Part shown: piece after piece, positions 7,182 to 27,466 of the stretch
Layout of the letters: every line of letters begins with the position of its first letter
Numbering within the stretch: the first letter of the stretch is position 1
DNA from: Alphaproteobacteria bacterium
GTDB lineage: Bacteria > Pseudomonadota > Alphaproteobacteria > ATCC43930 > CGMCC-115725
Length of the DNA stretch: 64,000 nucleotides
Direction: 5' to 3'
Assembly: GCA_028871055.1 (NCBI GenBank)
Contig: JAGWON010000013.1
Coordinates: 1-64,000, forward strand
Notes under the pieces: generated by a model
The model's database searches: none
The model's input: the letters and a program-made list of their open reading frames with translations, nothing else
What the model was told of the DNA's origin: nothing
Translations under genes and position numbers: made by a program

Positions 7182-7966
7182 TCGGAAGGTTCGAGCGCGC
7201 TTTCGTGCCAGTGGCGCAGCAGCCGGCGCGAGAGCCACGAAAGCACCGCGAAGATCACGATGCCGGTCAGCGACAGCAGGAACAGCGCCGCGAACATTCG
7301 CGGAATCTCGAGCCGGTAGCCGGCCTCGATGATGCGCGAGGCGAGGCCGGTCTTGGCGCCGCCGGTGCCGGCGACGAATTCGGCCACCACCGCGCCGATC
7401 AGCGCCAGGCCGCCGCTGATGCGCACGCCCGCCAGGAACAGCGGCAACGCCGACGGCAGGCGCAACAGACGCAGCGTTTGCAATCTGCCGGCGCCGTAGA
7501 GCCGGAACAGATCAACCAGGTTGCGATCGGCGCTGTTCAATCCCAACGTCGTGTTGGCCACGATGGGAAAGAAGGCGACGATGGTGGCGCAGACCAGCAG
7601 CGCGGCGAACACGTCGTTGACCCAGATGATGATGAGCGGCGCGATCGACACCACCGGCGTCACCTGCAAGATCACCGCGTAGGGGAAAAAGCTCACCTCG
7701 ACGGTCTTCGACAGCGAGAACAGCACGGCGAGCGCGCCGCCGAGCGCCACGGCCAGCGCCAGCGCCGCGACCGTGATGCGCAGCGTCACCAGCAGCGAAG
7801 CCAACAGGCTCGGCCCGTCAGTCCACAGCGTGCGCGCGATCACCCCCGGTCCCGGCAAGACATAGGGTGGGATGGCGAAAAAACGCACCGCCTCGTGCCA
7901 GCCGGCGACGACCAGCACGCCGACCACGATGGGCCCGATGACGGGGGCGAAACGCGCGCCGTTCAC
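7178..7966 (-). CDS. ABC transporter permease, NitT/TauT type
   Basis: A 262-residue inner-membrane permease of the SsuC/TauC/ThiX kind, with about six hydrophobic segments and the EAA-loop region (SADRNLVDLFRLYGAGRLQTLRLLRLPSALP, about 130-160). Last gene of a three-gene importer; its start overlaps the ATPase stop by 4 bp, indicating translational coupling. It works with the ATPase at 7963 and the binding protein at 8724. Confidence 0.9.
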   Translation of the reverse strand: MNGARFAPVIGPIVVGVLVVAGWHEAVRFFAIPPYVLPGPGVIARTLWTDGPSLLASLLVTLRITVAALALAVALGGALAVLFSLSKTVEVSFFPYAVILQVTPVVSIAPLIIIWVNDVFAALLVCATIVAFFPIVANTTLGLNSADRNLVDLFRLYGAGRLQTLRLLRLPSALPLFLAGVRISGGLALIGAVVAEFVAGTGGAKTGLASRIIEAGYRLEIPRMFAALFLLSLTGIVIFAVLSWLSRRLLRHWHESALEPSD

Positions 7967-8709
7967 ACCATCGCCTCCGCCAGCTTGGCCGAGACCGCGC
8001 GGCAGGCGTCGCTATAGACGGGCGCGAGGCGCAAGCCGGCGTCGCGCGTTTCGGGCAGATTGACCGGCAGATCGGCGACGATCCGGCCCGGCCGCTTGGT
8101 CATCACCACGATCCGGTTGGTCAGGAATACGGATTCGAACACGCTGTGCGTCACGAACACGATGGTGCAGCGCAGATTGCGCCACAACGCGCGCAAATCC
8201 TCGTTGAGCTTGAAGCGGGTGATCTCGTCGAGGGCGGCGAACGGCTCGTCGAGCAGCAGCAGCGCCGGCTCGGTGACGAGCGCGCGGGCAATCGAGACGC
8301 GCATGCGCATGCCGCCCGAGAGCTGGCGCGGATAGGCGCGCGCGAACTCGCCGAGACCCAACGAGTCCAGCATCGCGCCGATGCGCGGCGTGGCGACGTC
8401 GCGCCCGACGCCGCGCAGGCGCAACGGCAGATAGACGTTGGCCCACACCGTGGCCCACGGCATCAGCGTCGGCTCCTGGAAGACGAAGCCGACGCGGCCG
8501 GCGACATCGGTGCCGCGGTCGAGCCGTCCCGCCGTCGGTTCGGCGAGCCCGGCGAGGATGCGCAACAGCGTGCTCTTGCCGCAGCCCGAGGGACCGAGCA
8601 CGCCGACGAACTCGCCGCGCGACACCGTGAGATCGATCCCCGCCAGCGCCGCGACGCCGTTGCGGAACGACTTCGCCAGCGCGGCGGCGGCAACGAGGGT
8701 TTCGGCCAC
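7963..8709 (-). CDS. ABC transporter ATP-binding protein, NitT/TauT type
   Basis: A 248-residue ATPase with Walker A GPSGCGKST (about 39-47), the Q-loop (VFQEPTLMPWATVWANV), signature LSGGMRMRV, Walker B LLLLDEPFAALD and the H-loop FVTHS. The Q-loop LMPW sequence and the overall pattern are typical of SsuB/TauB/ThiZ ATPases. Coupled to the permease by a 4-bp overlap and separated from the binding-protein gene by 14 bp. Confidence 0.92.
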   Translation of the reverse strand: MAETLVAAAALAKSFRNGVAALAGIDLTVSRGEFVGVLGPSGCGKSTLLRILAGLAEPTAGRLDRGTDVAGRVGFVFQEPTLMPWATVWANVYLPLRLRGVGRDVATPRIGAMLDSLGLGEFARAYPRQLSGGMRMRVSIARALVTEPALLLLDEPFAALDEITRFKLNEDLRALWRNLRCTIVFVTHSVFESVFLTNRIVVMTKRPGRIVADLPVNLPETRDAGLRLAPVYSDACRAVSAKLAEAMV

Positions 8710-8723
8710 GCCGCGCGCCTCGC

Positions 8724-9728
8724 CTAGCGTTGCGCTTTCAGCCCGACGCCGTGGTCGACGAAGCGCAGGGTATAGGCCTGCCGATAGTCCAGCGTGGCGG
8801 GATAGAGCCCCTGTTTCGCCATGACCTGGAAGAACGCCCGCCAGCGCGCGTCGGTCATGGCGCCGACGCCCAGCGTCTTGGCGTCGCCGCTGTCGACGAT
8901 GCCATGGCTTTTCATCGTCGCCCGTGCATAGGCGAGCAACGCGTCGGTTTCTTCAGGATTGTCCTTCTTGATGAGCGCGTTGGCCGGCGCGGGATCACGA
9001 TAGAGATAGGCGTACCAGCCCTCGATCGAAGCGTCGACGAAGCGCCGCACTAGCTCGGGATTGTCGTGCACCAGTTTGGCGGAGGTCTCGATAATCGAGC
9101 CGTAGCTCGCGTAGCCTGCATCGGCGAGCAGAAACACCTGCGGATCGCCGCCCGCCTGCTCGATCAAAAACGGCTCGCTGGTGAGATAGCCCTGTTGGAT
9201 CGCCTTCGGATTGGTGAGGAACGGCGCCAGGTTGAAGGTATAGGGCCGAATCTGCGCATCGGTGTAGCCGAACTTCGATTTCAAAAAGAGCCACCAGCCG
9301 ACGCGGGTGTCGCCGCCGATCATGATGGGCTTGCCCTTGAGGCCGGCCAAGTCCCTGTAGCTGGCGCCGCGATGGGCGATCAGCACGGTCGGGTCCTTCT
9401 GGAAGAACGCCGCGACCGCGACGAGCGGGATTCCCTGATTCCGGATGTTGAGCGGCAGAAAGCTGTTGGAGACGATGGCGAAATCGAGACGCCCAGCGGC
9501 CAGAAGCTGTGACTGACTGATCTGCGGTCCGCCCTGGCGCAGGTCGACGGCGATTCCGTGCCGGGCGTAAATACCCGCGGCGATCGCCTCATAATATCCG
9601 CCATGCTCGGCCTCGGCGAGCCAATCGGTGCCGAACACGACACGTTCGAGCGCCCGCGCCGGACCGCCGGCAACCAGTGCCAGCAACACGGCCGGAAAAA
9701 TGCGCAATATGGCGTTCCGCATCCGCAC
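8724..9728 (-). CDS. NMT1/ThiY-like periplasmic substrate-binding protein
   Basis: A 334-residue secreted solute-binding protein. Signal peptide residues 1-26 (ends ARA). The mature N-terminus VVFGTDWLAEAEHGGYYEAI is characteristic of the NMT1/THI5-like group, which binds thiamine pyrimidines, riboflavin or related heterocycles; QGGPQISQSQLLAAGRLDFAI continues the fold. No TPP or FMN riboswitch is seen upstream, so the ligand cannot be named. First gene of the importer operon. Confidence 0.85.
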   Translation of the reverse strand: MRMRNAILRIFPAVLLALVAGGPARALERVVFGTDWLAEAEHGGYYEAIAAGIYARHGIAVDLRQGGPQISQSQLLAAGRLDFAIVSNSFLPLNIRNQGIPLVAVAAFFQKDPTVLIAHRGASYRDLAGLKGKPIMIGGDTRVGWWLFLKSKFGYTDAQIRPYTFNLAPFLTNPKAIQQGYLTSEPFLIEQAGGDPQVFLLADAGYASYGSIIETSAKLVHDNPELVRRFVDASIEGWYAYLYRDPAPANALIKKDNPEETDALLAYARATMKSHGIVDSGDAKTLGVGAMTDARWRAFFQVMAKQGLYPATLDYRQAYTLRFVDHGVGLKAQR

Positions 9729-12353: not shown

Positions 12354-14195
12354 ATGGACACGATAAACCCCGCCGCTGAAACCAACCAGCCGGTCGAGCT
12401 CGTGGTCGACGGTCCGCTGCTTGTCTTCGGCGGCTGTTACAGCAACCTCGAAGCCACGTTGGCGTTGCGCGTCGAGGCCGAACGGCTCGGTATCCCGCCC
12501 CAACGCACGATTTGCACGGGTGACGTTGTCGCCTATGGCGCAGATCCGGTTGAAACCGTCGCCCTCGTTCGTGACTGGGGTATCCACGTGGTCATGGGCA
12601 ACTGCGAAGAATCCTTGGGATCTGCTGGTACGGATTGCGGCTGCGGATTTGCCGAGGGCAGCGTCTGCGCCGACCTGGCCGCCGCCTGGTACACCTATGC
12701 CGATCAGCGGCTCGGCGAGGCCGATCGCGCCTGGATGCGCGCGCGACCGCGGCGCCTCTATGTCCGGCTCGGCGGTCGTCGCCTGGCGATCGTCCATGGC
12801 TCGGTCGAGCGCATTAACGGGTTCATCTTCGCGTCGACATCCTGGACGGAAAAATCGCGCCAGATCGTTCTCGCTGCTTGCGACGGCATCATCGGCGGTC
12901 ACGCGGGTGTTCCGTTTACGGAGTTACGCGAGGGCAAGCTCTGGCACAACGCCGGCTCGATCGGCATGCCGGCGAACGACGGAACGCGACGCGTTTGGTA
13001 TAGCCTCCTCATATCGACCCCGGCCGGCGTTGAAATCCGCTCGATTCCGTTCGATTACGACGCCGTTGCTGCAACGTGCAAAATACGCGCAGCCGGATTG
13101 CCCGAGGGGTATGCGGCGGCCCTCGAGACCGGGTTGTGGCCGAGCTGCGACATCCTGCCAAATAAAGAGCGGGCGGCGACTGGACAAGCCCTTCAGCCCC
13201 ATCGCTGCCTCTGGAACAGCGCGTCCGGTGCCGACGCCGTAACCTTGTCTGTACCGCCGTCAGCGCACGCGAAATTCAGCGATCCCGATCACACCGCGAA
13301 CGGCGAACGCCGCGCCGGTGTAGGTCTCAAGACGCTCGAAACGGTGTGGTTCAACACCGGAACGCTGTGCAACATTACCTGCGATAATTGCTACATCGAA
13401 TCGAGCCCGCGCAACGATCGGCTCGTCTACCTGAGTCGAACGGAAGTGCGCCGTTTCCTCGACGAGGCGTCCGCGCGCGACCCGCGCCCGATGGAAATCG
13501 GCTTTACCGGCGGCGAGCCGTTCATGAATCCCGGATTTCTTGGCATGCTGGAGGACAGCCTGATAGCCGGATTCCGGGTCCTGGTCTTGACCAATGCGAT
13601 GAAGCCGATGCAGCGGGCGCGGACACGACTCGCGGCGATCAACCGGCGTTTTGCCGAGCGCCTCACCGTTCGCGTGTCGCTTGACCATTATGCCCGCGAA
13701 CGCCACGAGCGGCTGCGCGGTCCGCGAAGCTGGCAACCGGCACTCGACGGCATGCTCTGGCTTGCGCGCAACGGCTTCAACGTCGCGGTGGCGGGGCGCA
13801 CGGTTTGGAGCGAAAGTGAAGCCGCGCTGCGCGCCGGTTATGGCGCGCTCTTCGCCGAACTGGGCGTGGCGATCGACGCCGACGATCCGGCGCGGCTCGT
13901 GCTGTTCCCGGAAATGGATTCGGACGAAGGCGTGCCGGAGATTACCGAACGGTGCTGGAACGTCCTGGGCAAAAGCCCGGATTCGGTGATGTGCGCCAGC
14001 GCGCGCATGGTGATCAAGCGCAAGGGCGCAGAGCGGCCAACGGTCGTCGCTTGCACGCTGCTGCCCTACGATCGCGCGTTCGAGCTTGGCGCGACACTGG
14101 CCGAGGCGGCGCGGCCGGTGAAGCTTAACCATCGTCACTGTGCACAGTTTTGTGTCCTCGGAGGTGCGTCCTGTAGCGCGCAGGCGGTCCGCTAA
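12354..14195 (+). CDS. Metallophosphoesterase-like / radical SAM fusion protein
   Basis: A 613-residue two-domain protein. Residues about 18-245 resemble calcineurin-type phosphoesterases of the YfcE/MJ0936 kind, but metal motifs are altered: FGGCYSN in place of the D-x-H motif, GDVVAYGADP kept, GNCE instead of GNHE, and GGHAG instead of GHTH. A Cys-rich DCGCGFAEGSVC follows. Residues about 325-560 are a radical SAM domain with C339-C343-C346 (CNITCDNCYIESS) and GGEP at 386-389. The tail has CAQFCVLGGASC (C596, C600, C607), possible ligands of an auxiliary cluster. First gene of a five-gene operon; the flavoprotein starts 1 bp after its stop. The reaction is unknown. Confidence 0.82.
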   Translation: MDTINPAAETNQPVELVVDGPLLVFGGCYSNLEATLALRVEAERLGIPPQRTICTGDVVAYGADPVETVALVRDWGIHVVMGNCEESLGSAGTDCGCGFAEGSVCADLAAAWYTYADQRLGEADRAWMRARPRRLYVRLGGRRLAIVHGSVERINGFIFASTSWTEKSRQIVLAACDGIIGGHAGVPFTELREGKLWHNAGSIGMPANDGTRRVWYSLLISTPAGVEIRSIPFDYDAVAATCKIRAAGLPEGYAAALETGLWPSCDILPNKERAATGQALQPHRCLWNSASGADAVTLSVPPSAHAKFSDPDHTANGERRAGVGLKTLETVWFNTGTLCNITCDNCYIESSPRNDRLVYLSRTEVRRFLDEASARDPRPMEIGFTGGEPFMNPGFLGMLEDSLIAGFRVLVLTNAMKPMQRARTRLAAINRRFAERLTVRVSLDHYARERHERLRGPRSWQPALDGMLWLARNGFNVAVAGRTVWSESEAALRAGYGALFAELGVAIDADDPARLVLFPEMDSDEGVPEITERCWNVLGKSPDSVMCASARMVIKRKGAERPTVVACTLLPYDRAFELGATLAEAARPVKLNHRHCAQFCVLGGASCSAQAVR

Positions 14196-14196
14196 C

Positions 14197-15627
14197 ATGG
14201 CGGCCTCTCTGATCAAGGCGGATATCTGCGTCATCGGCGCCGGATCGGCGGGCCTGTCGGTCGCCGCCGGCGCGGCGCAGCTCGGCGCACGCACCGTGCT
14301 AATCGAGGCCGCCCGCATGGGCGGCGACTGCCTCAACACCGGTTGCATTCCGTCAAAATCCCTGCTGGCCGCCGCCAGGACGGCGCACACGATCAAGGAG
14401 GCGGCCAAGTTCGGCGTCCGCGCGGACGCGCTGCGGGTCGATTTCGCAGCCGTCCACGACTATGTGCACAGCGTCATCGCCGCCATCGCGCCGCATGACT
14501 CCGTGGAGCGGTTCACGCGGTTGGGTTGTACCGTTGTGCAGGCGCGCGCCAAATTCATCGACGAGCGTACCCTCGAGGCGGGCGGACAGCGTATCCGCGC
14601 CCGCCGCTTCGTGGTCGCCACCGGCAGCCGAGCCGCGGTGCCGCCGATCCGGGGGCTCGACGGCGTGCCGTACTTCACCAATGAGACTCTGTTCGACAAC
14701 GTCACGCTCCCAGATCACCTCGTGATCGTAGGCGCCGGGCCGATCGGTTGCGAAATGGCCCAAGCACATCGGCGGCTCGGGTCGCGGGTCACTGTGCTCG
14801 ACCTTGGATCAATGCTGCCGAAGGACGATCCCGAGGCGGTCGCGATCATCCGTCACGCCTTCGCCGCAGAAGGAATCGCGGTCGTTGAATCCGTGTTGGT
14901 CCGCCGCGTTGAACGCAACGCAACCGGTATCGTGGCGACCGTGGCTGAAGCGGGAACCGAGCGGCAAATCGACGGCACTCATCTGCTGATCGCGACCGGC
15001 CGCAAGCCGAACGTCGAAGACCTCGGCCTCGACGCCGCGGGCGTGCGCTTCAGTGCGACGGGTATCGAGATCGATGCGCGACTGCGCACCAGCAATCCGC
15101 ACATCTATGCGATCGGCGATGTCGCGGGTGGCTATCAATTCACCCATCTCGCCGGTTATCACGCCGGCATCGTGCTGCGTAACGCGCTGTTCCGGCTTCC
15201 CGCCAAGGTGGACCTGCGAGCCTTCCAGTGGGTGACCTATACCGATCCGGAGCTGGTGCAGGTGGGTATGACCGAGACGCAGGCGCGCACCGCGCACGGC
15301 GACGCGGTTCGCGTGTCGCGCGCCACGTTTGCCGACAACGATCGCGCCCAAACCGAGGGCGCAACACAAGGATTCATCAAAGTGATGACCTCGGCGCGCG
15401 GCCGCATCCTGGGCGTGACCCTCGTCGGTTGCCACGCCGGTGAATTGGCGCTGCCCTGGATACTGGCGATTGCACGCGAGTTGCGGATTGGCACGCTGGC
15501 GACGGCAATCGCGCCCTATCCGACGCTCAGCGAAATCAGCAAGCGCGCAACGGGCGCGTTCTACGCGCCGAAGCTCTTCAGCCGGCGCACCCGTGCGCTC
15601 GTTCGCCTGCTGGGATGGCTCGGTTGA
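14197..15627 (+). CDS. Mercuric-reductase-like FAD/NAD(P)H disulfide oxidoreductase
   Basis: A 476-residue class I pyridine nucleotide-disulfide oxidoreductase. FAD-binding GAGSAGLSVA near residue 16, redox-active GGDCLNTGCIPSKSLL (CX4C), NAD-binding VGAGPIGCEMAQ and the ATGRKP segment are all present. The C-terminal Cys pair that MerA uses for Hg(II) is absent, so it is a MerA relative and not a mercury reductase. Paralogues of this type regularly sit beside TVP38 membrane proteins and TIGR0428x glycosyltransferases. It overlaps the next gene by 13 bp. Electron acceptor unknown. Confidence 0.9.
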   Translation: MAASLIKADICVIGAGSAGLSVAAGAAQLGARTVLIEAARMGGDCLNTGCIPSKSLLAAARTAHTIKEAAKFGVRADALRVDFAAVHDYVHSVIAAIAPHDSVERFTRLGCTVVQARAKFIDERTLEAGGQRIRARRFVVATGSRAAVPPIRGLDGVPYFTNETLFDNVTLPDHLVIVGAGPIGCEMAQAHRRLGSRVTVLDLGSMLPKDDPEAVAIIRHAFAAEGIAVVESVLVRRVERNATGIVATVAEAGTERQIDGTHLLIATGRKPNVEDLGLDAAGVRFSATGIEIDARLRTSNPHIYAIGDVAGGYQFTHLAGYHAGIVLRNALFRLPAKVDLRAFQWVTYTDPELVQVGMTETQARTAHGDAVRVSRATFADNDRAQTEGATQGFIKVMTSARGRILGVTLVGCHAGELALPWILAIARELRIGTLATAIAPYPTLSEISKRATGAFYAPKLFSRRTRALVRLLGWLG

Positions 15628-16331
15628 CCCGAGCCAACACCGTCAAACGCCTGCTGCCGGTGATCGTGCTGGCGGGACTCGCCATCGCGTTCTTCGCCTC
15701 GGGCCTCAATCGGTATTTGACCTGGGCGGCGCTGCATGACAACGACCTCGCGTTGCACGCCTTTGTTGGGCGGCATCCCATTCTAGCGCCGGTGGCCTTC
15801 GTCGTGGCCTATGCCCTGGTTATTGCGCTGTCAGTCCCCGGCGGCGCGGTGATGACCGTCAGCGGCGGATTCCTTTTCGGCCTTTGGTTTGGAGCGCTGC
15901 TCACCATCATCGGAGCGACGAGCGGCGCCATCATCGTCTTTCTTCTGGCCCGCTTCGTCGTCAGCGATCTCGTACGCCAGCGCGCCGGCCCGCTCCTCAA
16001 GCGCATGGCGGACGGGTTCGCGCGCAACGCCTTCTCCTATTTGCTGTTCCTGCGGCTGGTGCCTCTCTTCCCTTTTTGGGCGGTCAACCTCGTACCAGCC
16101 TTCGCCGGAATCGGAGTGTCCACCTTCGCCGTGGCAACGTTGATCGGCATCATTCCGGGAACGCTCGCATATGCCTCGATCGGCAGTGATCTCGGAGCAT
16201 ACTTTGCCGCCAACGCCGGCGTGCCGTTGGGTCAGGTGTTCAGCCCAAAAATGCTCGCACTCCGGATCGGCTTGGCGGCGATCGCGTTACTGCCGATCAT
16301 CGTCAAATGGGCAAAAAAGCGGATGCAATGA
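15615..16331 (+). CDS. TVP38/TMEM64 family membrane protein
   Basis: A 238-residue inner-membrane protein of the DedA/VTT superfamily, with about five hydrophobic segments. The conserved region VPGGAVMTVSGGFLFG, then GATSGAIIVFLLAR and FLRLVPLFPFWAVNLVPAFAGI matches the VTT domain. Members move or scramble lipids or act as small-molecule transporters. Its stop overlaps the start of the glycosyltransferase (ATGA). It may carry the pathway intermediate or product across the membrane. Confidence 0.9.
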   Translation: MARLTRANTVKRLLPVIVLAGLAIAFFASGLNRYLTWAALHDNDLALHAFVGRHPILAPVAFVVAYALVIALSVPGGAVMTVSGGFLFGLWFGALLTIIGATSGAIIVFLLARFVVSDLVRQRAGPLLKRMADGFARNAFSYLLFLRLVPLFPFWAVNLVPAFAGIGVSTFAVATLIGIIPGTLAYASIGSDLGAYFAANAGVPLGQVFSPKMLALRIGLAAIALLPIIVKWAKKRMQ

Positions 16332-16993
16332 ACCTGTCGGTGGTCATTCCGACCCTCAATGCAGCGTCGCGTCTGCCAGCGACGCTGGCTGCGCTTGCCG
16401 ACGCCGACGAAATCGTCATCGCCGACAGCGGTTCGAACGACGGCACTGTCACGCTCGCGGCTGCGTGCGGCGCGCGTGTCGTTGCGGCGCCGTCGGGCCG
16501 TGGCCCCCAGTTGATCGCGGGCGCACGGGCTGCCTGTAACGCGTGGTTACTGTTCCTGCACGCCGATACCGTGCTCGAGCCTGGCTGGCGTAACGAAGTC
16601 GATCGATTCATGGCGCTGCCCGAACACGCCAAGGTGGCGGCAACGTTTCGCTTTGCGCTCGACGATGACTCGCCCTTTGCGCGGCAGCTCGAGGCCGTTG
16701 TCGCCCGGCGTAGTCGTTGGTTCGGATTGGCCTATGGCGACCAGGGTCTCTTGATCCACCGCGATTTCTATGCCGGCCTCGGCGGCTTTCGGCCGTGGCC
16801 GCTGATGGAAGACGTCGATTTCGTGCGACGGATCGGCAGGGGCCGGCTGCTCGTCTTCCGGACTGCGGCGCGAACTTCGGCCGAACGGTGGCGGCGCGAC
16901 GGCTGGCGCCGGCGGAGCGCGCGCAATCTCGGCTGCCTGGCGCTCTACTTCGCCGGCGTGCCGCCGCACATCATCCAGCGCCTTTACGGCTGA
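16328..16993 (+). CDS. Family 2 glycosyltransferase, TIGR04283 type
   Basis: A 221-residue soluble GT-A glycosyltransferase. Seen: LSVVIPTLNAASRL at the N-terminus, IVIADSGSNDGT, FLHADT (the DXD-like metal site) and the acceptor-side GDQGLLIHRDFYAGLGGF then LMEDVDF. This short form belongs to the TIGR04283 group, annotated as arsenosugar-biosynthesis-associated because of gene neighbourhood. The ATG at 16328, overlapping the previous stop, is preferred to one seven codons upstream. The sugar donor is unknown. Confidence 0.88.
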   Translation: MNLSVVIPTLNAASRLPATLAALADADEIVIADSGSNDGTVTLAAACGARVVAAPSGRGPQLIAGARAACNAWLLFLHADTVLEPGWRNEVDRFMALPEHAKVAATFRFALDDDSPFARQLEAVVARRSRWFGLAYGDQGLLIHRDFYAGLGGFRPWPLMEDVDFVRRIGRGRLLVFRTAARTSAERWRRDGWRRRSARNLGCLALYFAGVPPHIIQRLYG

Positions 16994-16995
16994 CC

Positions 16996-17598
16996 GTGGT
17001 TTTGCGGCGTCACCTTGTGATCTTCGCGCGCTATCCGATCTTGGGCGCAGGCAAACGACGCCTGGCGCACGACGTCGGTGCGGTCCAGGCGTTGCGCGTC
17101 CAGCGCGTGATGCTCGGACATGCGCTGCGCCGTCTTGCCGACCGTCGCTGGCTTCTGTGGCTAGCAGTGACGCCCGACCGCTCCGGCCCCTGGCGGGCAC
17201 GGCATCGCCTGGTCGCGCAAGGATCGGGCAATCTCGGCGACCGCATGACAGCGGTCGCGCGCCGACTTCCGCCGGGACCGGTGGTCATCGTCGGCAGCGA
17301 TGTTCCGGGCATCATGGGTGACGACGTCGCGCGCGCGTTTCGGGCGCTGGGAAATTGCGATGCCGTGTTCGGCCCGGCGCACGACGGCGGCTATTGGCTC
17401 ATCGGCCTGCGGCGGCGGCCGCGATTTGTCGATCCCTTTCGCAATGTCCGCTGGTCGAGTCCACACGCCCTCGCCGATACACGGCGCAATCTGAGCGGCA
17501 ATGCGATCGCCTTGCTGAACAGCCGCCGTGACGTCGACGACGGCGCCTCGCTCGCCTGGCATCGGCGGTGGGATCGGCTCAATGACCGCGTGTGTTAA
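16996..17598 (+). CDS. TIGR04282/DUF2064 glycosyltransferase-like protein
   Basis: A 200-residue nucleotidyl/glycosyltransferase-fold protein. HLVIFARYPILGAGKRRLA at the N-terminus, GNLGDRM, VIVGSDVPGI and FGPAHDGGYWLIGL are the marks of DUF2064, the TIGR04282 group that travels with TIGR04283. The start is a GTG at 16996, two bases after the previous stop; the frame is open further upstream inside the preceding gene. It closes the operon and overlaps the convergent methyltransferase by 4 bp. Confidence 0.88.
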   Translation: MVLRRHLVIFARYPILGAGKRRLAHDVGAVQALRVQRVMLGHALRRLADRRWLLWLAVTPDRSGPWRARHRLVAQGSGNLGDRMTAVARRLPPGPVVIVGSDVPGIMGDDVARAFRALGNCDAVFGPAHDGGYWLIGLRRRPRFVDPFRNVRWSSPHALADTRRNLSGNAIALLNSRRDVDDGASLAWHRRWDRLNDRVC

Positions 17599-18221
17599 GG
17601 CGCTGCACGCACCTCAATGAGCTTGATGAGATCGGGCACAACATAACGGCTCGATGCAATGGCGAGGCCGGCCTCGCGAATATGCGCCTCCGTCCGCCGG
17701 TCGAAGCGGGCGCCATAGGCCCAGGCGATCCAGGGCGCCCAGAGCTGCGAGATGAATCGTCGGACCGCACCGCGTGGCCGCACGTATTCGAGCAGCCGGA
17801 TCGGCCCGCCGGGTTTCACCACTCGCACCAGCTCACGCAGCGCGGCCGGCTGCAACTCATCAGCCAGGACACAAAACAGAAACGTCGCCGCAGCGGCGTC
17901 GAACGACGCGGTGGGAAAATCGAGCCGCGTTACGTCCATCACGCAGAGATCAACCGACGCCGCGCGTGACGAAGCCCGGCGCCGCGCGGCGCGTGCCAGC
18001 ATCGTCGGACTGAGGTCGATGCCGACGACAACAGCGCCCGGCGGGTAAAATGGAAGATTGCGGCCAGTGCCAACACCGGCATCCAGGATGCGACCGGAGA
18101 GGCCGACGAACAGCTGGGGCCGAAGCGCGCGATAGCGACCGTATTCGAAGGGCAGATCGAGCAGATCATAAAACGGCGCAATCCGCTGATAGCGTTCGAA
18201 ATTTGGCCGGTGGGAAGTCAC
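17595..18221 (-). CDS. Class I SAM-dependent methyltransferase
   Basis: A 208-residue UbiE/PmtA-like methyltransferase. IAPFYDLLDLPFEYGRYRAL precedes motif I LDAGVGTGRNLPFYP (about 44-58), then motif II VGIDLSPTMLARA and the later FCVLADELQPAALRELVRVVKPGG. I take the GTG at 18221 as start because the homology begins there; the frame is open for another 36 codons. Phospholipid or quinone methylation is possible. It faces the glycosyltransferase operon, so membership of that pathway is uncertain. Confidence 0.8.
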   Translation of the reverse strand: MTSHRPNFERYQRIAPFYDLLDLPFEYGRYRALRPQLFVGLSGRILDAGVGTGRNLPFYPPGAVVVGIDLSPTMLARAARRRASSRAASVDLCVMDVTRLDFPTASFDAAAATFLFCVLADELQPAALRELVRVVKPGGPIRLLEYVRPRGAVRRFISQLWAPWIAWAYGARFDRRTEAHIREAGLAIASSRYVVPDLIKLIEVRAAP

Positions 18222-18249
18222 TCGGGTTGCGAACTTTGAAGACGGCCGC

Positions 18250-18843
18250 TCACGGCGCCGTTTGCTTAAGAAAATAGCCGAGGAATTTCGTTGCTTTCGG
18301 CGAATCCCACTTTGCGGCACCGGTAACATAGCCGATGACGCCGCCTTCTTTGTCGATGACGTAGGTGATCGGCAAACCCCACAACGGCAATGCTCCGGCG
18401 GCGACGTGGTCGGCGTTCAATGAACCTAGGCCCTGGTTAGGATCAAGATAGACCGCTAAATGTGTGAGATGATGGGCCGTGATGAAGGGCGTGGCGGCTG
18501 TGGCGCTGTCCCGGTCAATCGACACAGCGATCACCGCCAATTGGTTCGGGTTACTTTCGGCGGCCAGCCGATCCAGGGCTGGCATCTCAGATTTGCAAGG
18601 ACGGCACCATGTTGCCCAGAAATTGACGACGATCACCTTGCCGCGGAATCGACTTAGACGGGTTGTCGTGCCATCGAGCGCGTAGATCACAGTGCCGGGT
18701 GCGGGATCGATCGGCCTCAAAAGCGTGAATTGGCCGATGGCACTGCGAAACGCCGGCGGCGATAGTGCAACAGCGAGGGGCCCCGCCGCCACTGACAGGA
18801 TAAAAATAAGACTCAGGAACAACCTTTTCCTTCCGCGTATCAA
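18250..18843 (-). CDS. TlpA-like periplasmic thioredoxin
   Basis: A 197-residue protein with an N-terminal signal/anchor (residues 7-27) and a thioredoxin domain: VVNFWATWCRPCKSEMPAL with the WCRPC active site near residue 80, and a cis-Pro in GLPITYVID. TlpA/ResA-type proteins reduce disulfides in the periplasm, for example during cytochrome c or CuA maturation. It lies 29 bp upstream of the methyltransferase on the same strand, so the two may share a transcript. Confidence 0.88.
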   Translation of the reverse strand: MIRGRKRLFLSLIFILSVAAGPLAVALSPPAFRSAIGQFTLLRPIDPAPGTVIYALDGTTTRLSRFRGKVIVVNFWATWCRPCKSEMPALDRLAAESNPNQLAVIAVSIDRDSATAATPFITAHHLTHLAVYLDPNQGLGSLNADHVAAGALPLWGLPITYVIDKEGGVIGYVTGAAKWDSPKATKFLGYFLKQTAP

Positions 18844-21375: not shown

Positions 21376-21912
21376 ATGCGGGAACTGACCATCGGCGAAG
21401 CTGCGCGCCAAGCGGGCGTCGGCGTCGAGACGATCCGGTTCTACGAGCGGCGGGGCCTGATCGATCGGCCGCTGAAGCCGCACGGTTCGGGCTTCCGGAT
21501 CTACCCGGCGGAGCAGATTAAGCGCATCAAGTTCATACGTCAGGCGCAGCAGATCGGCTTCTCACTCAAGGAGATTCACGAGCTTTTGGCGCTGCGGGCC
21601 GATCCGAAGGCTGATTGCTCGATGGTCCGAGAGCAGGCCGTCGCCAAGCTCGAAGAGGTGCGGCGTAAGATCGAGCAGCTTCGCCAGATCGACTCGGCGT
21701 TGGAAGCGCTCATCGCGGTATGTCCGGGCTGCGGCGCATTGCAAGCGTGCTCTATCCTCGACACGTTAGTCGAGCCCAGCCGTGGCCCTGTGCCGCGGAT
21801 CGAAGCCGAAGGTCCGTTGCCAACCGCCTCGCCCCAGCGGACCCGTCAGCGGAATGGGCGCTTCGGCGGCAACAACCGAGGCACTATCAACAAGCGAAGT
21901 GGACCGCCGTGA
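21376..21912 (+). CDS. MerR family metal-responsive regulator
   Basis: A 178-residue MerR activator. The HTH ELTIGEAARQAGVGVETIRFYERRGL starts at residue 3. Metal-site Cys are C81, C116 and C125, spaced 35 and 9 as in Hg(II)-sensing MerR (82, 117, 126), with an extra C119 in CPGCGALQAC. A 35-residue basic C-terminal extension is unusual. A good ribosome site (GAGGTGGCG) precedes the ATG. Its GTGA stop overlaps the start of the HMA gene. Hg(II) is the best guess, but Pb, Cd or Zn sensing by related regulators cannot be excluded. Confidence 0.85.
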   Translation: MRELTIGEAARQAGVGVETIRFYERRGLIDRPLKPHGSGFRIYPAEQIKRIKFIRQAQQIGFSLKEIHELLALRADPKADCSMVREQAVAKLEEVRRKIEQLRQIDSALEALIAVCPGCGALQACSILDTLVEPSRGPVPRIEAEGPLPTASPQRTRQRNGRFGGNNRGTINKRSGPP

Positions 21913-22127
21913 AATCCCTGACGTTGAAGATCGAGGGCATGCATTGCGACGGCTGCGCGGCGACCGTCAAGGCGCTGGTCGAGCGCGCGGACGGCGTGCG
22001 GACGGCGTCCGTGGCATTTGCGACCGGCGAGGCCCGCATCCTCTATGATCCGGCAACCACGAACGAGGACCGCTTGGTGGCGATCGTCGAAAAGTCCGGC
22101 TATCGCGTCGTGGGCCGCACGCCATGA
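21909..22127 (+). CDS. Heavy-metal-associated (HMA) domain protein
   Basis: A 72-residue cytoplasmic metal carrier. LTLKIEGMHCDGCAATVKALV carries the CXXC metal site at about residues 13-16. There is no signal peptide, so unlike MerP it works inside the cell, probably handing metal to the ATPase encoded next. The start is a GTG overlapping the regulator stop. Confidence 0.87.
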   Translation: MKSLTLKIEGMHCDGCAATVKALVERADGVRTASVAFATGEARILYDPATTNEDRLVAIVEKSGYRVVGRTP

Positions 22128-22172
22128 TTCTTGCGGCGGCGAACAGCGGGCCCTCGGCATAGGCGTTTCGGA

Positions 22173-24632
22173 ATGAGCATCGCGACGACATCGGCAACCG
22201 CAGGACTTTGGACCGAGGAGTCCTCGACGAGACCCGATCGCCGGAAAATCCGCGCGCGCATCGGCGGCCTGCATTGTTCGCTCTGCACCGGAACCATCGA
22301 GAAGGCGCTCGGCCGGCTGCCGGGCGTCGACAAGGTCGCCGTCAGCCTGACCCACGAACAAGCGCTGGTCGAATATGATCCGGCAGTTACGCGGCCCGAA
22401 GAGCTGCTGCAGACGCTCAAGGACATCGGCTACACGATCTCCGATCCGCGCAAGCTGCGGCCCTTCGAAGAAGAGGAGCGTGAGCTCGTCCGCGAGGGCC
22501 GGCGTTTCGTCGCCGCCGTGGGTTTGAGCCTTGCCGCCATCGCGCTCATCGCGCATCCGGCGGGCATCTGGGCCGGGCTGCTTCCCGCTTCCGTCGCCGC
22601 CAGCCTCCTCGCCTTCGTCTTCCTGGTTTTACGGCCGACCGGGCTTGGCGCGGCGATCGGCGGCGCGGGCGGTCTCGCCGTCGTGGCTTCGGTCCTGCTT
22701 TACCTCCAGTTCGCCGGACGGCTGGCGGCGGCAACGCCGTGGATCGTGGCCGCCTTGGCCTTCGCCCTCGTGTTCGGCGTCGGCCGCCATATCCTCCATA
22801 TGGCGGTGCAGGCGCTTCGCCGCGGCATCCTCAATCAGCATGTGCTGCTGGAGATCGGCGCCTTCGCCGGTATCCTTGGCGGCATCGTCGGCCTTGCGAT
22901 GCATCCGCCGGGCTATCCCACGGCGCCGTTCTTCGCTGTGGCGGTGATGGTCGCGACCTATCACATCTTCTCGGAATGGCTGTCGTTGATCGTCAAGACG
23001 CGCAGCTCGCAAGCCGTCAAGCGCTTGCTCGATCTGCAGCCGGACATGGCCCGGGTCGTGCGCGACGGCCGCGACGTCGACATTCTGCTCGCCGAGGTGG
23101 CGATCGGCGATCTTGTCCGCATCCGGCCCGGCGAACGCGTGCCGGTAGACGGCACGGTCGCGGCCGGCCATTCCGGGATTGACCAGTCCTTCGTCACCGG
23201 CGAGCCGATCCCCGTGGAGAAGCGCGAGGGCGATTCCGTTGTCGGCGGCTCGATCAACGGGACCGGCAGCCTGCTGATCCGCGTGACCGCGATCGGCGAC
23301 GAGAGTTTCTTGCCGCGGGTGGTCCGTCAGGTCGAAGACGCGCGGGCGCTCAAACCCGGCATCCTGCATCTGGTCGATCACATCCTGCGCGTCTATACGC
23401 CGGTCGTGCTGGCGATCGCGGCTATTGCCTTCGTCGGCTGGATGGTGGGACCGCTCGTCACCACCGGTCATTCCGATCTTGGCCGCGCCGCATTCGCGGC
23501 GTTGAGCGTGCTGGTGATGGGTTACCCCTGTGCCGTCGGCATATCGGCGCCGCTCTCGATCGTGCGCGGCGCGGGCGAAGCGGCGGATCGCGGAATCCTG
23601 ATGCGCACGGGCGAGGCGTTCCAGACTTATCGGCTGGTGAAGCAAATTGCCTTGGACAAAACTGGGACGCTCACCGAAGGCAAGCCGACGGTGCGCGCGA
23701 TCGCAGCGACCGGCGCCGACGAAGGCGAGCTGTTGGCGATCGCCGCGGCCGTCGAATCCTCCTCCGAGCATCCGCTTGCAGCCGCCATCGTGCAGGCTGC
23801 CTTCGCGTGCGCGGTCGTGCCGCCTGCGGTCGAGGCCTTCGAAGGGTTTCCTGGCCAGGGCGCCGTTGCGCGCGTCGCCGGTCGGGATTCCGTGGTCGGC
23901 AATCCGCGCTTCGTCGGCGCACGGGGCGTCGATTTGAAGCCAGTCGCCGACCGGATCGCCGCCCTGGAAGAACAAGGCGGCACGGTGATCGTCGTCGCCC
24001 GGGATGGCGTGGTGCTCGGTGTCGTGTCGCTCGATGACCCGCTCAAGGCGGATGCGCGCGAATTCGTTGCCGCCCTGCGCCAGGCCGGGATCAGGACGAT
24101 CATGGTCACCGGCGACAATGAACGCGCGGCGCGACGGGTGGCGCGCGATCTCGGCATCGACGAGGTCCATGCCGCGATGTTGCCGGACGCAAAGGCAGAC
24201 ATCGTTCGCGACCTCCAGAAACGCGGCAAAGTGGCGATGGTCGGCGACGGGATCAACGATGCGCCGGCCTTGATGCAAGCGGATGTCGGCATCGCCATGG
24301 GCGGCGGCACGGACATCGCCATCGAGTCCGCCGACATCATAATCCTCGGCCGCAGACTCGCCGCAATCCTGCGCGCGCGCGAGATCAGTCGCCGCAGCTA
24401 TCGCAAGATGGTGCAGAACGTGGCGCTCGCATTCTGCTTCAACGGCGTCGGCATACCCGTCGCCGCCACGGGGTTGATCGATCCCGTGTGGGCGATGGCG
24501 GCGATGGCGGTGAGCGTCACCGCGATCTTCTTCAACTCGCTCTGGGGCCGGCCGTCGCTGTTTATCGATGCGATCCTCAGCGTCGGCCGTATGCCAGTAG
24601 CGTCCGCGACGCCAGCAGCGGCCCATCCGTGA
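22173..24632 (+). CDS. Heavy-metal translocating P1B-type ATPase with YPC motif
   Basis: An 819-residue metal pump. An N-terminal HMA domain (GLHCSLCTGT, C35 and C38) is followed by about eight spans, the TGEP loop (FVTGEPIPVEK), phosphorylation motif DKTGTLTEG (D495), the HP motif SSSEHPLAAAIV and GDGINDAPALMQ (about 691). The ion-binding motif in the sixth span is Y451-P452-C453 (GYPCAVGISAP), not the CPC, SPC or TPC of standard P1B classes. The start is the ATG at 22173; the frame is open 14 codons further up. It is the last gene of the merR-like operon. It probably exports a soft metal; which one is open. Confidence 0.9.
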   Translation: MSIATTSATAGLWTEESSTRPDRRKIRARIGGLHCSLCTGTIEKALGRLPGVDKVAVSLTHEQALVEYDPAVTRPEELLQTLKDIGYTISDPRKLRPFEEEERELVREGRRFVAAVGLSLAAIALIAHPAGIWAGLLPASVAASLLAFVFLVLRPTGLGAAIGGAGGLAVVASVLLYLQFAGRLAAATPWIVAALAFALVFGVGRHILHMAVQALRRGILNQHVLLEIGAFAGILGGIVGLAMHPPGYPTAPFFAVAVMVATYHIFSEWLSLIVKTRSSQAVKRLLDLQPDMARVVRDGRDVDILLAEVAIGDLVRIRPGERVPVDGTVAAGHSGIDQSFVTGEPIPVEKREGDSVVGGSINGTGSLLIRVTAIGDESFLPRVVRQVEDARALKPGILHLVDHILRVYTPVVLAIAAIAFVGWMVGPLVTTGHSDLGRAAFAALSVLVMGYPCAVGISAPLSIVRGAGEAADRGILMRTGEAFQTYRLVKQIALDKTGTLTEGKPTVRAIAATGADEGELLAIAAAVESSSEHPLAAAIVQAAFACAVVPPAVEAFEGFPGQGAVARVAGRDSVVGNPRFVGARGVDLKPVADRIAALEEQGGTVIVVARDGVVLGVVSLDDPLKADAREFVAALRQAGIRTIMVTGDNERAARRVARDLGIDEVHAAMLPDAKADIVRDLQKRGKVAMVGDGINDAPALMQADVGIAMGGGTDIAIESADIIILGRRLAAILRAREISRRSYRKMVQNVALAFCFNGVGIPVAATGLIDPVWAMAAMAVSVTAIFFNSLWGRPSLFIDAILSVGRMPVASATPAAAHP

Positions 24633-24664: not shown

Positions 24665-25120
24665 TCAGCGGCGAGGGCGTGAATCGGCCGGTAACCGCGT
24701 CTCGAACAGCGCGTCGATGATCGGGCACTCCGGAACCGTGCCGCCGCCGCATTGCGCAGCCATGGTTTCGAGCACGCGCTCGTATTTCTTGAGGTCGGCG
24801 ATCTTGCGCCGGATCTCATGGACATGGTCCCGCGCCAACTTCTCGACCTGGGCGCAGGTGAATTTGCGACCGTCGACGAGGCGGAGCAAGCCGCGGATTT
24901 CCGCCAGCGTGAATCCGAGTTCGCGGCTGCGCCGGATGAAATTGAGCCGCTTGAGCAGGTCCGCGCCATAGAGCCGATAGCCGGCGGCGCTGCGCGGCGG
25001 CGACGGCAACAGACCAATCCGCTCGTAATACCGGATGGTCTCGAGGTTGCAGCCGGTGCACGCCGCAAGCGCGCCACGCGTCACGAGTTCGCCGCGCGCG
25101 CCGTTCGTAATGGCCGGCAT
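24665..25120 (-). CDS. merR: Mercuric resistance regulator MerR
   Basis: A 151-residue MerR regulator. HTH RGALAACTGCNLETIRYYERIGLL near residues 16-39; metal Cys in KFTCAQVEKLARDH and in QCGGGTVPECPIIDAL, the alphaproteobacterial MerR pattern. An AGGAGC-like site (GGAG) lies 7 bases before the ATG. It is divergent from merT-merP-merA with a mer-type promoter between. It represses without Hg(II) and activates with it, by family. Sequence differs clearly from the merR-like regulator at 21376, so the island has two independent sensors. Confidence 0.9.
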   Translation of the reverse strand: MPAITNGARGELVTRGALAACTGCNLETIRYYERIGLLPSPPRSAAGYRLYGADLLKRLNFIRRSRELGFTLAEIRGLLRLVDGRKFTCAQVEKLARDHVHEIRRKIADLKKYERVLETMAAQCGGGTVPECPIIDALFETRLPADSRPRR

Positions 25121-25240
25121 CGTGCCGCTCCAAAATGTGTAGTCGATACAGGCTATATCCAGCAGCCCGGAATCGGCAAGAACCCCTCGCCGTGAGCGAT
25201 GGTTCCTTTCAGTATCTTAATGTGCCGGCTGATTTTCCGC

Positions 25241-25271
25241 TTGAGCCTGTACGTCATACAGGCCTTAGCGT
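25241..25271 (+). promoter_or_regulatory. mer promoter/operator for merTPA
   Basis: -35 TTGAGC (25241-25246), 19-bp spacer, -10 TAGCGT (25266-25271). A perfect palindrome GCCTGTACGTCATACAGGC (25245-25263) overlaps the -35 and spacer. A related half site, TGTA-N5-TACAGGC at 25138-25153, lies close to the merR start and may give autoregulation. The arm sequence differs from the CCGTAC arms of the other module. Confidence 0.78.
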
Positions 25272-25315
25272 TCCGCCGAATGACAAGAGCGAATGCGGGC
25301 GTTCGGGAACCAGCT

Positions 25316-25726
25316 ATGAACAACATTGCGGATAGTGCTATCGCGACGGGACGGGACGGGAGCCCAGCTACGCCGGCTAGCCGCACGGCGGGACTGGCCG
25401 CCGCAGGCGGCGTTCTCGGCGCGCTGGTCGCGTCGACATGCTGCATCGTGCCCCTGGTGCTGTTCACGCTCGGCATCAGCGGAGCTTGGATCAGCAACGT
25501 GACCGCGCTCGAGCCGTATCAGCCGATCTTCTTCGCGACCACCGCCGGCTTCCTCGGCGTCGGCTATTCCCTCGTCTATCGACGGCAAAAGGTGGCTTGT
25601 GCCAACGGGACCTGTGCCCAGCCGTTGCCGACCCGCGTCGTGAAGGCGGCACTGTGGGTCGCAACCGCCTTGGTGATCGCGGCGGCCGCATTCCGCTATC
25701 TCGCCTCACTTTTGCTCGGCGCGTGA
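25316..25726 (+). CDS. merT: Mercuric ion transporter MerT
   Basis: A 136-residue inner-membrane Hg(II) importer with three spans. The first span holds the Cys pair STCCIVPLV, and the cytoplasmic loop after the second carries the other two Cys (CANGTCA), as in MerT. The ATG at 25316 follows the mer promoter by 45 bp; a longer upstream reading would overlap the promoter. Accepts Hg(II) from MerP and passes it to MerA. Confidence 0.92.
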   Translation: MNNIADSAIATGRDGSPATPASRTAGLAAAGGVLGALVASTCCIVPLVLFTLGISGAWISNVTALEPYQPIFFATTAGFLGVGYSLVYRRQKVACANGTCAQPLPTRVVKAALWVATALVIAAAAFRYLASLLLGA

Positions 25727-25751
25727 GCGTGACCAACGCTTGGAGGATTCC

Positions 25752-26036
25752 ATGAGACGTCTGTTTTTCGCGCTCAGCCTCGGTGCTGCTCTGCTCACCG
25801 CCGGCGCCGTAATGGCGGCCGAGAGAAGCGTGAGGCTCGCTGTCGACAACATGTACTGCGCGAGTTGTCCCTACATCGTCAAACACAGCCTCGCTAAAGT
25901 GGCCGGCGTCGGTGCCGTGAGCGTCTCGTTCGCGAAGAAAACTGCGACGGTCACCTACGACGACCAGCAGACGACACTGGCCGCGCTCATCGCCGCGACG
26001 ACGCAAGCCGGCTATCCCTCTCATGTGATCCAATGA
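25752..26036 (+). CDS. merP: Periplasmic mercury-binding protein MerP
   Basis: A 94-residue protein: signal peptide 1-22 (ends VMA), then a single HMA fold with MYCASCPYIVK. The two Cys are kept, but the usual GMTC is DNMYC here. The ATG at 25752 has a GGAGG ribosome site six bases upstream. Its stop overlaps the merA start (ATGA). Confidence 0.92.
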   Translation: MRRLFFALSLGAALLTAGAVMAAERSVRLAVDNMYCASCPYIVKHSLAKVAGVGAVSVSFAKKTATVTYDDQQTTLAALIAATTQAGYPSHVIQ

Positions 26037-27466
26037 ACCCGCTGTGGCCGGCGGGCGCCAAGGCGCCGAACGGCCGCTACGACCTCGCGGTCGTCGGCGC
26101 CGGTTCGGCCGGCTTCGCGGCCGCCATCGCGGCGGCTGATCTCGGCGCCCGTGTCGCGCTCATTGGCCACGGCGTGATCGGCGGCACCTGCGTCAACACC
26201 GGCTGCGTGCCATCGAAGACCCTGATCCGGGCGATGGAATCGCTCCATCACGCCAAAATCGCCGGTCGCTTCGCCGGCATTCGGGCGGACGGGTGCATCG
26301 AGGACTGGGCCGCCGTGGTGCGCCATAAGGATGAGTTGGTAGCGTCGCTCCGCCAGGCGAAGTACGCGGCGCTGCTGCCGAACTACAACACCATTGCCTA
26401 TCTGGAGGGCTGGGCGCGGCTGGCAGAGGGCGGCGTCGCCATCGATGGAAACCGATTGACGGCCGGCAGGGTGATCATTGCGACGGGCGCGTCACCGGCG
26501 CTGCCGCCCATCCCAGGCATCGACGGCGTGCCGCATCTGACGAGCACGACTGCGCTCGAGCTCAAGCGACTGCCGAAGTCGCTGCTCGTGATCGGCGGCG
26601 GCTACATCGGCTGCGAACTCGGTCAGCTGTTCGCCCGCGCCGGCGTCGCGGTGACGATCGTCGACATTATGCCGATCCTGTCGACCGCCGAGCCGGAGAT
26701 CGCGAAAGCTCTGGGCCGCTATCTGCGTGACGAAGGACTCGTCATCCGCGACGGCGTCCGGACGAAGGCCGTCCGGAAGACCGAGCGCGGGATCGTCCTC
26801 GACATCTCAGACGACAGCAGAGACGAGATGCTCGAGGCCGAGCAGGTGCTAATTGCGACCGGACGCCGGCCCAACACGGCCGGGATGGATCTCGAGGATG
26901 CCGGCATCGAGATCCTTCCGAACGGCGGCATCAAGATGGACGACCACATGCGCACCACAAAAGCCGGTATCTATGCAGCGGGCGACGTCACCGGCCGCGA
27001 CCCATTCGTCTATATGGCCGCTTATGGCGCGAAGATCGCGGCAGAGAACGCGCTTAACGACGACAGCCGACGTTACGATCCGACGGCGATGCCGTCCGTC
27101 GTCTTCACCGATCCGCAACTCGCGAGCGTCGGACTGACGGAGGAGCAGGCTCGGAAGCGGCGCCTGCACGTGAAAACCACGGTGATGCCGCTTGATTATG
27201 TTTCCCGGGCCCTTGCCGCCCGCGACACGCGTGGGATGATCAAGCTGGTCGCGGATTCCGACAGCGACAAATTGCTCGGCGCACACATCCTGGCGCCGGA
27301 GGGCGCCGACAGCATCCAAACCGCGGCAATCGCCATCAAATGCGGAATGACGGTCCAGGATCTCGCCGACATGATCTTTCCCTATCTCACCACGGTCGAG
27401 GGGCTCAAGCTCGCGGCCCAGAGCTTCACGCGGAACGTGGCGCAGCTTTCGTGTTGCGCAGGCTAG
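26033..27466 (+). CDS. merA: Mercuric reductase MerA
   Basis: A 477-residue flavoenzyme reducing Hg(II) to volatile Hg(0) with NADPH in the cytoplasm. FAD site VVGAGSAGFAAA near residue 20, redox pair C53/C58 in GGTCVNTGCVPSKTL, NAD(P) site VIGGGYIGCELGQ, and the decisive C-terminal Cys pair C474-C475 (LSCCAG) that takes Hg(II) from the transporter. No N-terminal HMA (NmerA) domain, a compact form seen in many alphaproteobacteria. Last gene of the mer operon. Confidence 0.95.
   Translation: MNPLWPAGAKAPNGRYDLAVVGAGSAGFAAAIAAADLGARVALIGHGVIGGTCVNTGCVPSKTLIRAMESLHHAKIAGRFAGIRADGCIEDWAAVVRHKDELVASLRQAKYAALLPNYNTIAYLEGWARLAEGGVAIDGNRLTAGRVIIATGASPALPPIPGIDGVPHLTSTTALELKRLPKSLLVIGGGYIGCELGQLFARAGVAVTIVDIMPILSTAEPEIAKALGRYLRDEGLVIRDGVRTKAVRKTERGIVLDISDDSRDEMLEAEQVLIATGRRPNTAGMDLEDAGIEILPNGGIKMDDHMRTTKAGIYAAGDVTGRDPFVYMAAYGAKIAAENALNDDSRRYDPTAMPSVVFTDPQLASVGLTEEQARKRRLHVKTTVMPLDYVSRALAARDTRGMIKLVADSDSDKLLGAHILAPEGADSIQTAAIAIKCGMTVQDLADMIFPYLTTVEGLKLAAQSFTRNVAQLSCCAG

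Follow-up and report, generated by a model that had tools for sequence, protein, structure and literature searches.

What does an operon make that encodes both glycosyltransferase families named after arsenosugar biosynthesis, TIGR04283 and TIGR04282, but neither the methyltransferase ArsM nor the radical SAM enzyme ArsS? Such an operon lies in the first 64,000 nucleotides (here, the window) of contig JAGWON010000013.1 from an alphaproteobacterial genome. Its first gene encodes a fusion of a phosphoesterase-like half (PE) and a radical SAM half (RS). The others encode a MerA-like flavoprotein, a VTT/TVP38 membrane protein, a family-2 glycosyltransferase (GT2) of TIGR04283 and a CofC-like DUF2064 protein of TIGR04282. 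The initial annotation of the window set this operon against arsenosugar operons and proposed a different small molecule as its product. Such a product is possible; on balance, we lean towards a variant of the bacterial arsenosugar-type pathway that has no ArsS and would rely on RS for the ArsS-like step.

The available excerpts of two papers (PMC12159101, PMC8552651) name ArsS as one of two radical SAM enzymes forming a carbon-arsenic bond, the other being the arsinothricin enzyme, and according to one of them the Synechocystis ArsS acts with ArsM in the first steps (PMC8552651). The ArsS family TIGR04167 is tabulated as a radical SAM selenoprotein family in excerpts of two further papers (PMC13188914, PMC9312934).

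ArsS and RS replace each other in otherwise equal gene clusters

We searched a class sample of 289 genomes and a phylum sample of 219 genomes, many of them incomplete. Judging by its nearest named relatives, the class is Alphaproteobacteria. True ArsS (>300 bits) was found in two class genomes, G054 (locus L114) and G186 (locus L115). The order in L114 is DUF2064, TVP-flavoprotein fusion, ArsS, phosphorylase, GT2, PE (on the other strand), PhnD, PhnE, PhnC and a second flavoprotein (FAD2). From the TVP-flavoprotein fusion onward L115 has this same order, and a TIGR04282 match (G186:C207:6169) lies immediately before it. In Ancylobacter, the RS cluster (L042) reads phosphorylase, PE-RS, GT2, DUF2064, PhnD, PhnE, PhnC, TVP, flavoprotein and FAD2. 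Ten partner families are common to L114/L115 and L042: the phosphoesterase, TIGR04283, TIGR04282, VTT, flavoprotein, phosphorylase, PhnD, PhnE, PhnC and second flavoprotein families. Only the radical SAM protein differs, ArsS and RS being swapped while the rest is kept. PhnD of L042 shares 74% identity with that of L114, and the least secure of the links is FAD2 of L042 (138 bits). The PhnD-type protein missed the cut-off of the PhnD model (170 bits; cut-off 261) and passed that of TIGR01098 (147.9 bits; cut-off 112). No other single observation speaks as strongly as this swap for RS occupying the ArsS position.

The partner genes of ArsS are also present in the window genome. Both glycosyltransferases are encoded in the operon and exceed their family cut-offs (TIGR04283, 204.9 bits, cut-off 182; TIGR04282, 137 bits, cut-off 134). 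The third partner, a PF01048 phosphorylase, is encoded near RS in several relatives and outside the operon in the window genome, where the homologue is 63% identical to the operon-linked one of L046. The initial annotation was right that ArsM and ArsS are absent from the operon, and the window genome also lacks ArsS over the cut-off and ArsM at an E value of 1e-20. Its sharp contrast with arsenosugar operons was too strong: the ArsS clusters L114 and L115 hold the same partners, PE included, and share PhnDEC and the second flavoprotein with an RS cluster, ArsM-like and phosphorylase-superfamily genes stand in or near the RS clusters of relatives, and RS shows homology to ArsS.

RS is a remote homologue of ArsS

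The C-terminal half of the fusion matched Radical_SAM (47.5 bits; cut-off 29.5). The radical SAM motif CX3CX2C is invariant in all 29 aligned RS sequences, which have nine invariant cysteines, three in this motif and six more. RS fell below the cut-off of every NCBIfam family, which supports the initial annotation. The best matches were the Rv1681 family radical SAM protein (NF049973; residues 329-506, 92.9 bits, cut-off 380) and ArsS (52.9 bits, and 54.8 in the class-genome search; cut-off 300). We take Rv1681 to be adjacent to the PhnD-like gene Rv1680 and to be of unknown function. RS is a widespread uncharacterized radical SAM family, and our literature search found no description of the RS family, the PE family or the PE-RS fusion.

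Profile alignment matched the cores of RS and ArsS with 98.2% probability over 145 columns, which makes RS a remote ArsS homologue. Furthermore, both have a Cys-rich C terminus with, as judged by eye, a similar MC...C...HC-like layout, which ends in HxxCAxFCVLGGASC in RS and in HCxGCTAGxGSSCGGA in ArsS. RS differs from ArsS in an additional invariant Cys (ITxxCW) and in its fusion to PE, seen in 15 of the 79 loci that were obtained by scanning public genomes with the fusion protein. Many of these loci are cut by contig ends, L045 among the 15; at the other loci, PE and RS are adjacent genes or just one is present. The closest solved radical SAM folds were BlsE, SkfB, SuiB, DesII and EpeE, with viperin lower down. 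These matches fix no function.

The idea that RS substitutes for QueE or is a pterin enzyme was rejected, since the corresponding neighbors are found only at some loci and were taken as local synteny. A QueC-type gene, preceded by a gene for an ABC ATPase, is directly upstream of PE-RS in L040, L041 and L043. ApaG and FolE genes neighbor RS in L062, L066, L070, L077, L078, L105, L118, L125 and L130, and ApaG only in L112.

The operon is conserved and RS co-occurs with the glycosyltransferases

The window order PE-RS, flavoprotein, VTT, GT2, DUF2064 is repeated in L031, L032 and L034 and, minus PE, in L049, L050, L052 and L060; other loci carry these genes reordered. Since the order recurs, the operon is more than a chance arrangement, and its five families belong together as a conserved unit. 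The initial annotation had named a neighborhood not conserved elsewhere, or an RS domain inside a characterized family, as grounds for giving up its view; neither was found. Genes were called with a simple codon-usage caller that missed or misplaced some (e.g., DUF2064 of L115 and GT2 in some of the loci L134-L145), and the neighbor counts are lower bounds.

A quick tree was built of 100 RS domains; rows with <250 aa of the domain and L001 (the window copy) were excluded, and G005 was present twice as identical rows. The window gene belongs to a 22-row clade (Shimodaira-Hasegawa-like approximate likelihood ratio test value, 99), in which 20 rows have flavoprotein and VTT genes within 6 kb. Outside this clade, both were counted in 3 of 78 rows and the flavoprotein gene alone in 5 of 78, many of the 78 coming from loci of ≤4 kb that cannot show neighbors. 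Because members of the clade come from Hyphomicrobiales, Rhodospirillales, an Acidiphilium and an Acidobacteriaceae metagenome-assembled genome, the operon has probably moved between lineages.

In the class sample, RS was counted in 83 genomes, i.e., 86 genomes at an E value of 1e-30 minus the PE-only matches G054, G186 and G093. TIGR04283 (counted at 1e-35; 102 genomes, 92 over the cut-off) was present in 78 of the 83 RS genomes versus 24 of the 206 non-RS genomes. Similarly, TIGR04282 (counted at 1e-20; 104 genomes, 76 over the cut-off) was present in 78/83 versus 26/206. RS and the glycosyltransferase pair co-occur although they are often far apart on the chromosome. RS or ArsS was detected in 19 of 20 PE genomes, compared with 66 of 269 genomes without PE. 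In families holding both states, counted among the genomes listed, RS and TIGR04283 changed together in 8 cases and oppositely in 1, with 6 ties. No genome contained both RS and ArsS, which were found in 83 and 2 genomes of the class sample and in 14 and 95 of the phylum sample, respectively. Finally, all 12 genomes that the scan retrieved through a lone PE gene (titled Gammaproteobacteria, Sedimenticola or Proteobacteria) hold a true ArsS, and in 7 of them ArsS, GT2 and DUF2064 are consecutive as called. We conclude that the genomic case for RS in the ArsS position is strong.

Additional RS copies were noted outside the window. Plasmid p546-1 of Roseomonas haemaphysalidis carries a related RS cluster (L178), in which a second radical SAM gene (7619-8998) overlaps the RS start by 4 bp. 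This gene is nearest to TrsS (100 bits; cut-off 490), and no relative at 1e-15 was detected among the called genes of the other loci. In Afipia sp. 1NLS2, the RS operon is present twice on the same contig (L047 and L052); one copy has ArsM-like and AhpD-like neighbors, and a phosphorylase gene lies within 6 kb of the other. A gene for a PiT-like phosphate permease (named from its N-terminal sequence) is near RS in L046, L047 and L049, and adjoins an ArsM-like gene in L046 and L047. Divergent RS relatives (32-36% identity over ~300 residues) were found in G406, G434, G468, G502 and G353, which belong to other classes, and on a Marinobacter adhaerens plasmid (L179). The phylum-sample search gave no ArsS match in these five genomes. 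The L179 copy has no listed gene and adjoins a gene for a sodium:solute symporter.

ArsM distribution and the case against an arsenical product

ArsM was scored on up to eight first-look candidates per class genome. An ArsM-like match (1e-30) was detected in 21 of the 83 RS genomes versus 4 of the 206 others. Five of the 21 passed the curated cut-off, and several others were partial, near 110 bits. When loci of ≥12 kb were compared, RS had an ArsM-like or phosphorylase gene at a distance of up to 6 kb in 9 of 22 flavoprotein-linked loci versus 1 of 34 others. Alignment columns 72, 174 and 226 are occupied by Cys in each of nine ArsM-like proteins encoded in RS loci, and in L010, from a genome of the window's own family, the gene for one of the nine is beside RS. 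Among 12 chosen genomes with flavoprotein-linked RS clusters (L031-L034, L042, L046, L047, L049, L050, L060, G000 and G134), 9 had an ArsM-like match at ≤1e-20; this is not a fair sample, because L042, L046, L047, L049 and L050 were chosen after an ArsM-like or phosphorylase neighbor had been noticed.

Several observations weigh against assigning RS the ArsS step. The window genome, which is 99.05% complete, has no match to the ArsM model NF008823 at 1e-20 and thus does not combine ArsM with ArsS, and 62 of the 83 RS genomes have no ArsM at 1e-30. RS falls short of the ArsS cut-off, and the profile alignment ends before the C terminus. C102 and C132, invariant in 14/14 ArsS sequences, are opposite a gap and a His in RS, respectively, and RS does not have the ArsS ending GCTAGxGSSCGGA, which is fully or almost invariant in these 14 sequences. 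RS lacks equivalents of the two cysteines, and therefore its acceptor may differ from that of ArsS. Shared ancestry is taken into account only in the small within-family contrast (P = 0.04) and not in the other co-occurrence tests, and the mutual exclusion of RS and ArsS tracks taxonomy. Both glycosyltransferase families but neither RS nor ArsS were found in 20 class genomes, including the PE genome G093, and both families were missing from four RS genomes. The link between lone PE and ArsS is support and not proof, because ArsS is common in the phylum sample anyway (95 of 219 genomes, 93 of them over the cut-off) and the lone-PE genomes are partly close relatives, most of the 12 sharing flanking genes.

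Some of these points suit an alternative to which we give an appreciable but minority chance, namely that RS, TIGR04282 and TIGR04283 make an arsenic-free glycosylated ribose-type metabolite with a phosphorus, selenium, sulfur or carbon acceptor. The "arsenosugar" names would then stem from the ArsS version alone, and arsenic would be a late specialization of the flavoprotein/VTT clade. Besides the missing ArsS core cysteines, this alternative is in line with the lack of ArsM in most RS genomes, only 5 of the 83 passing its cut-off, and in both class ArsS genomes. In many genomes RS has no glycosyltransferase neighbor, the GT2-DUF2064 pair is found in a housekeeping-like context, and some clusters include PhnDEC-type phosphonate/phosphite transporters. 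However, the enrichment of ArsM with RS and the conserved cysteines of all nine ArsM-like proteins in RS loci argue for arsenic.

Genome-wide absence of ArsM was rejected as proof of a non-arsenic product, since ArsS control genomes often lack ArsM too. It was missing from G054 and G186, and among the 12 lone-PE ArsS genomes, three were over the cut-off, one scored 248 bits, three scored 78-83 bits and five had none. Because ArsS genomes show the same gap, it does not separate an arsenical from an arsenic-free product. It is also weak evidence because methylated arsenicals might come from outside; the PhnDEC-type transporter of several clusters could bring in either a methylated arsenical or a compound of phosphorus. 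According to an excerpt of PMC12608789, the uptake of small organoarsenicals is largely unknown.

The phosphoesterase half is degenerate

The N-terminal half of the fusion matched Metallophos_2 (29.3 bits; cut-off 27). An AlphaFold2 model of the fusion had a mean predicted local distance difference test score of 90.0 and a predicted template modeling score of 0.63, indicating that the domains are well modeled while their relative placement is unsure. PE has its fold and overall alignment in common with SapH-type metallophosphoesterases (3qfm), 3rqz and 1nnw, the last being the best fold match. All 48 PE members have G26, G27, Y29 and N31 at the positions of S-D-x-H-x-N in 3rqz and SapH, and G185 at the place of the last His in the GHxH of SapH. 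Both the motif-I Asp and His and the second His of GHxH, expected of a two-metal enzyme, are thus replaced. In contrast, D57, N83, H148 and H183 are retained in 48/48 sequences and correspond to the second-site ligands D, N, H and H, the assignment of ligands to the two metal sites being our assumption.

From the alignment, PE appears to have lost the ligand set of metal site 1, which SapH and 3rqz have, and one metal site should be gone. The loss of motif I is not unique to PE, because the 1nnw and 2gju rows of the alignment also lack its Asp and His. C95, C97 and C105 (C-x-C...C) are invariant in all 48 sequences, a feature of the PE family, and PE may bind phosphate or a thiol-reactive metalloid.

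Alternatively, and compatibly with every other reading considered here, PE might be an ordinary, active Ap4A (diadenosine tetraphosphate) hydrolase-like phosphoesterase, the fusion merely coupling dephosphorylation to the radical SAM step. The Ap4A hydrolase/phosphodiesterase SapH (3qfm/3qfn) is among the closest solved structures, and the four retained ligands fit such an activity. Since the site 1 ligands are replaced throughout the family, we consider an ordinary two-metal enzyme unlikely.

Operon layout and genomic setting

A direct read of the junctions confirmed base for base the five packed genes at 12354-17598, all on the plus strand, as initially annotated (Table 1). The junctions are, in order, a 1-bp gap, a 13-bp overlap, an ATGA overlap at 16328 and a 2-bp gap. 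The G+C content is 0.656 in the operon and 0.648 in the window. The host genome comprises 3.07 Mb, with the operon on contig C8.

Table 1. Coordinates of the operon genes and of domains and motifs in the fusion protein (window numbering)
Feature	Position	Strand	Remarks
PE-RS fusion gene	12354..14195	+	ATG start, TAA stop; 613 aa; degenerate metallophosphoesterase + radical SAM
PE domain	12405..13193	+	Metallophosphoesterase fold
PE Cys cluster C95-x-C97...C105	12636..12668	+	From family alignment
RS domain	13269..14177	+	Radical SAM core + Cys-rich C terminus (C534, C547, C567, C596, C600, C607)
Radical SAM motif CNITCDNC (CX3CX2C), residues 339-346	13368..13391	+	
MerA-like FAD disulfide oxidoreductase, 476 aa	14197..15627	+	ATG to TGA
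VTT/TVP38 membrane protein, 238 aa	15615..16331	+	ATG to TGA; VTT_dom match
TIGR04283 family-2 glycosyltransferase	16328..16993	+	Stop TGA; in-frame ATG at 16307 as alternative start
TIGR04282/DUF2064 CofC-like nucleotidyl/glycosyltransferase	16996..17598	+	GTG start, TAA stop

The operon flavoprotein is a MerA-like disulfide oxidoreductase that missed the TIGR02053 cut-off (360 bits; cut-off 454). Its best solved match is the MerA structure 5x1y (260 bits). Both have the redox CX4C pair (CLNTGC in the operon protein), and APYLT of MerA aligns with APYPT in the APYPTLSE segment near the C terminus. No C-terminal Cys pair as in MerA was found in its sequence, as the initial annotation had noticed.

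Directly downstream, on the opposite strand, are genes for a class I methyltransferase (17595-18329) and a TlpA-like thiol-disulfide protein. The methyltransferase was rejected as ArsM; its best ArsM-type score was 44.6 bits of 510 (NF041537), with 23.4 bits for NF008823. A mercury resistance operon at 24665-27466 consists of genes for a divergent MerR-like regulator, MerT-like and MerP-like proteins and a true MerA (26033-27466; 525 bits, cut-off 454), which is separate from the operon flavoprotein. Upstream of it (21376-24632) are genes for a second MerR-family regulator, a small metal-binding protein and a heavy-metal P-type ATPase. Around TIGR04283/TIGR04282, many of the loci L149-L165 have the pair in a recurring block with CcrM-type methyltransferase-, RNase HII-, MutY-, PA0069-like radical SAM- and MoaB-like genes (named from N-terminal sequences only).

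That RS and PE have a separate job, e.g., in cofactor or nucleotide biosynthesis, and came to lie beside the glycosyltransferase genes by co-transfer in a metal resistance region is very improbable: RS does adjoin ApaG/FolE or QueC genes at some loci, and the mer operon is only 7-10 kb downstream, but RS and TIGR04283 co-occur even at a distance and the exchange of ArsS for RS retains the same partners.

A proposed pathway and its implications

We infer the catalytic steps and the acceptor of the arsenosugar-type pathway that we favor as follows. RS would cleave S-adenosylmethionine and transfer its 5'-deoxyadenosyl moiety to a small molecule; dimethylarsenite or another arsenical would be the most likely acceptor. 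The PF01048 enzyme, of nucleoside phosphorylase type and read as methylthioadenosine phosphorylase-like, would then remove adenine to give a 5-substituted ribose-1-phosphate, which the CofC-like TIGR04282 protein would activate. TIGR04283 would move the activated ribose to glycerol or a lipid head group. Roles at the membrane and in keeping the acceptor reduced may fall to the VTT protein and the MerA-like flavoprotein, and PE might hold a phosphorylated or thiol-reactive intermediate instead of working as an ordinary two-metal phosphoesterase.

In a bolder version, which we find doubtful, glycosylated ribosides of a phosphate-like element would be made by a second, widespread route that relies on RS as its radical SAM enzyme and draws its substrate from import, not from ArsM. 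The PhnD-type transporter would import methylarsonate, dimethylarsinate or a phosphorus analogue, RS would adenosylate it, and the fused one-metal, three-cysteine PE would hold the trivalent or phosphorylated intermediate. If so, about 29% of the sampled class genomes would make compounds that have perhaps never been looked for, and the names of TIGR04282 and TIGR04283 would be too narrow.

The exchange of ArsS for RS with ten partner families kept provides a concrete further candidate for carbon-arsenic bond formation, and it also gives a way to test the purpose of the whole pathway. Since RS is common in related bacteria, a widespread pathway may bear the name of only one of its versions. 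Should RS carry out the ArsS step, arsenosugar-like chemistry would extend to a large part of the class, including methanotrophs such as Methylocystis and Methylocapsa. Otherwise, the names of two NCBI families applied to many genomes are misleading.

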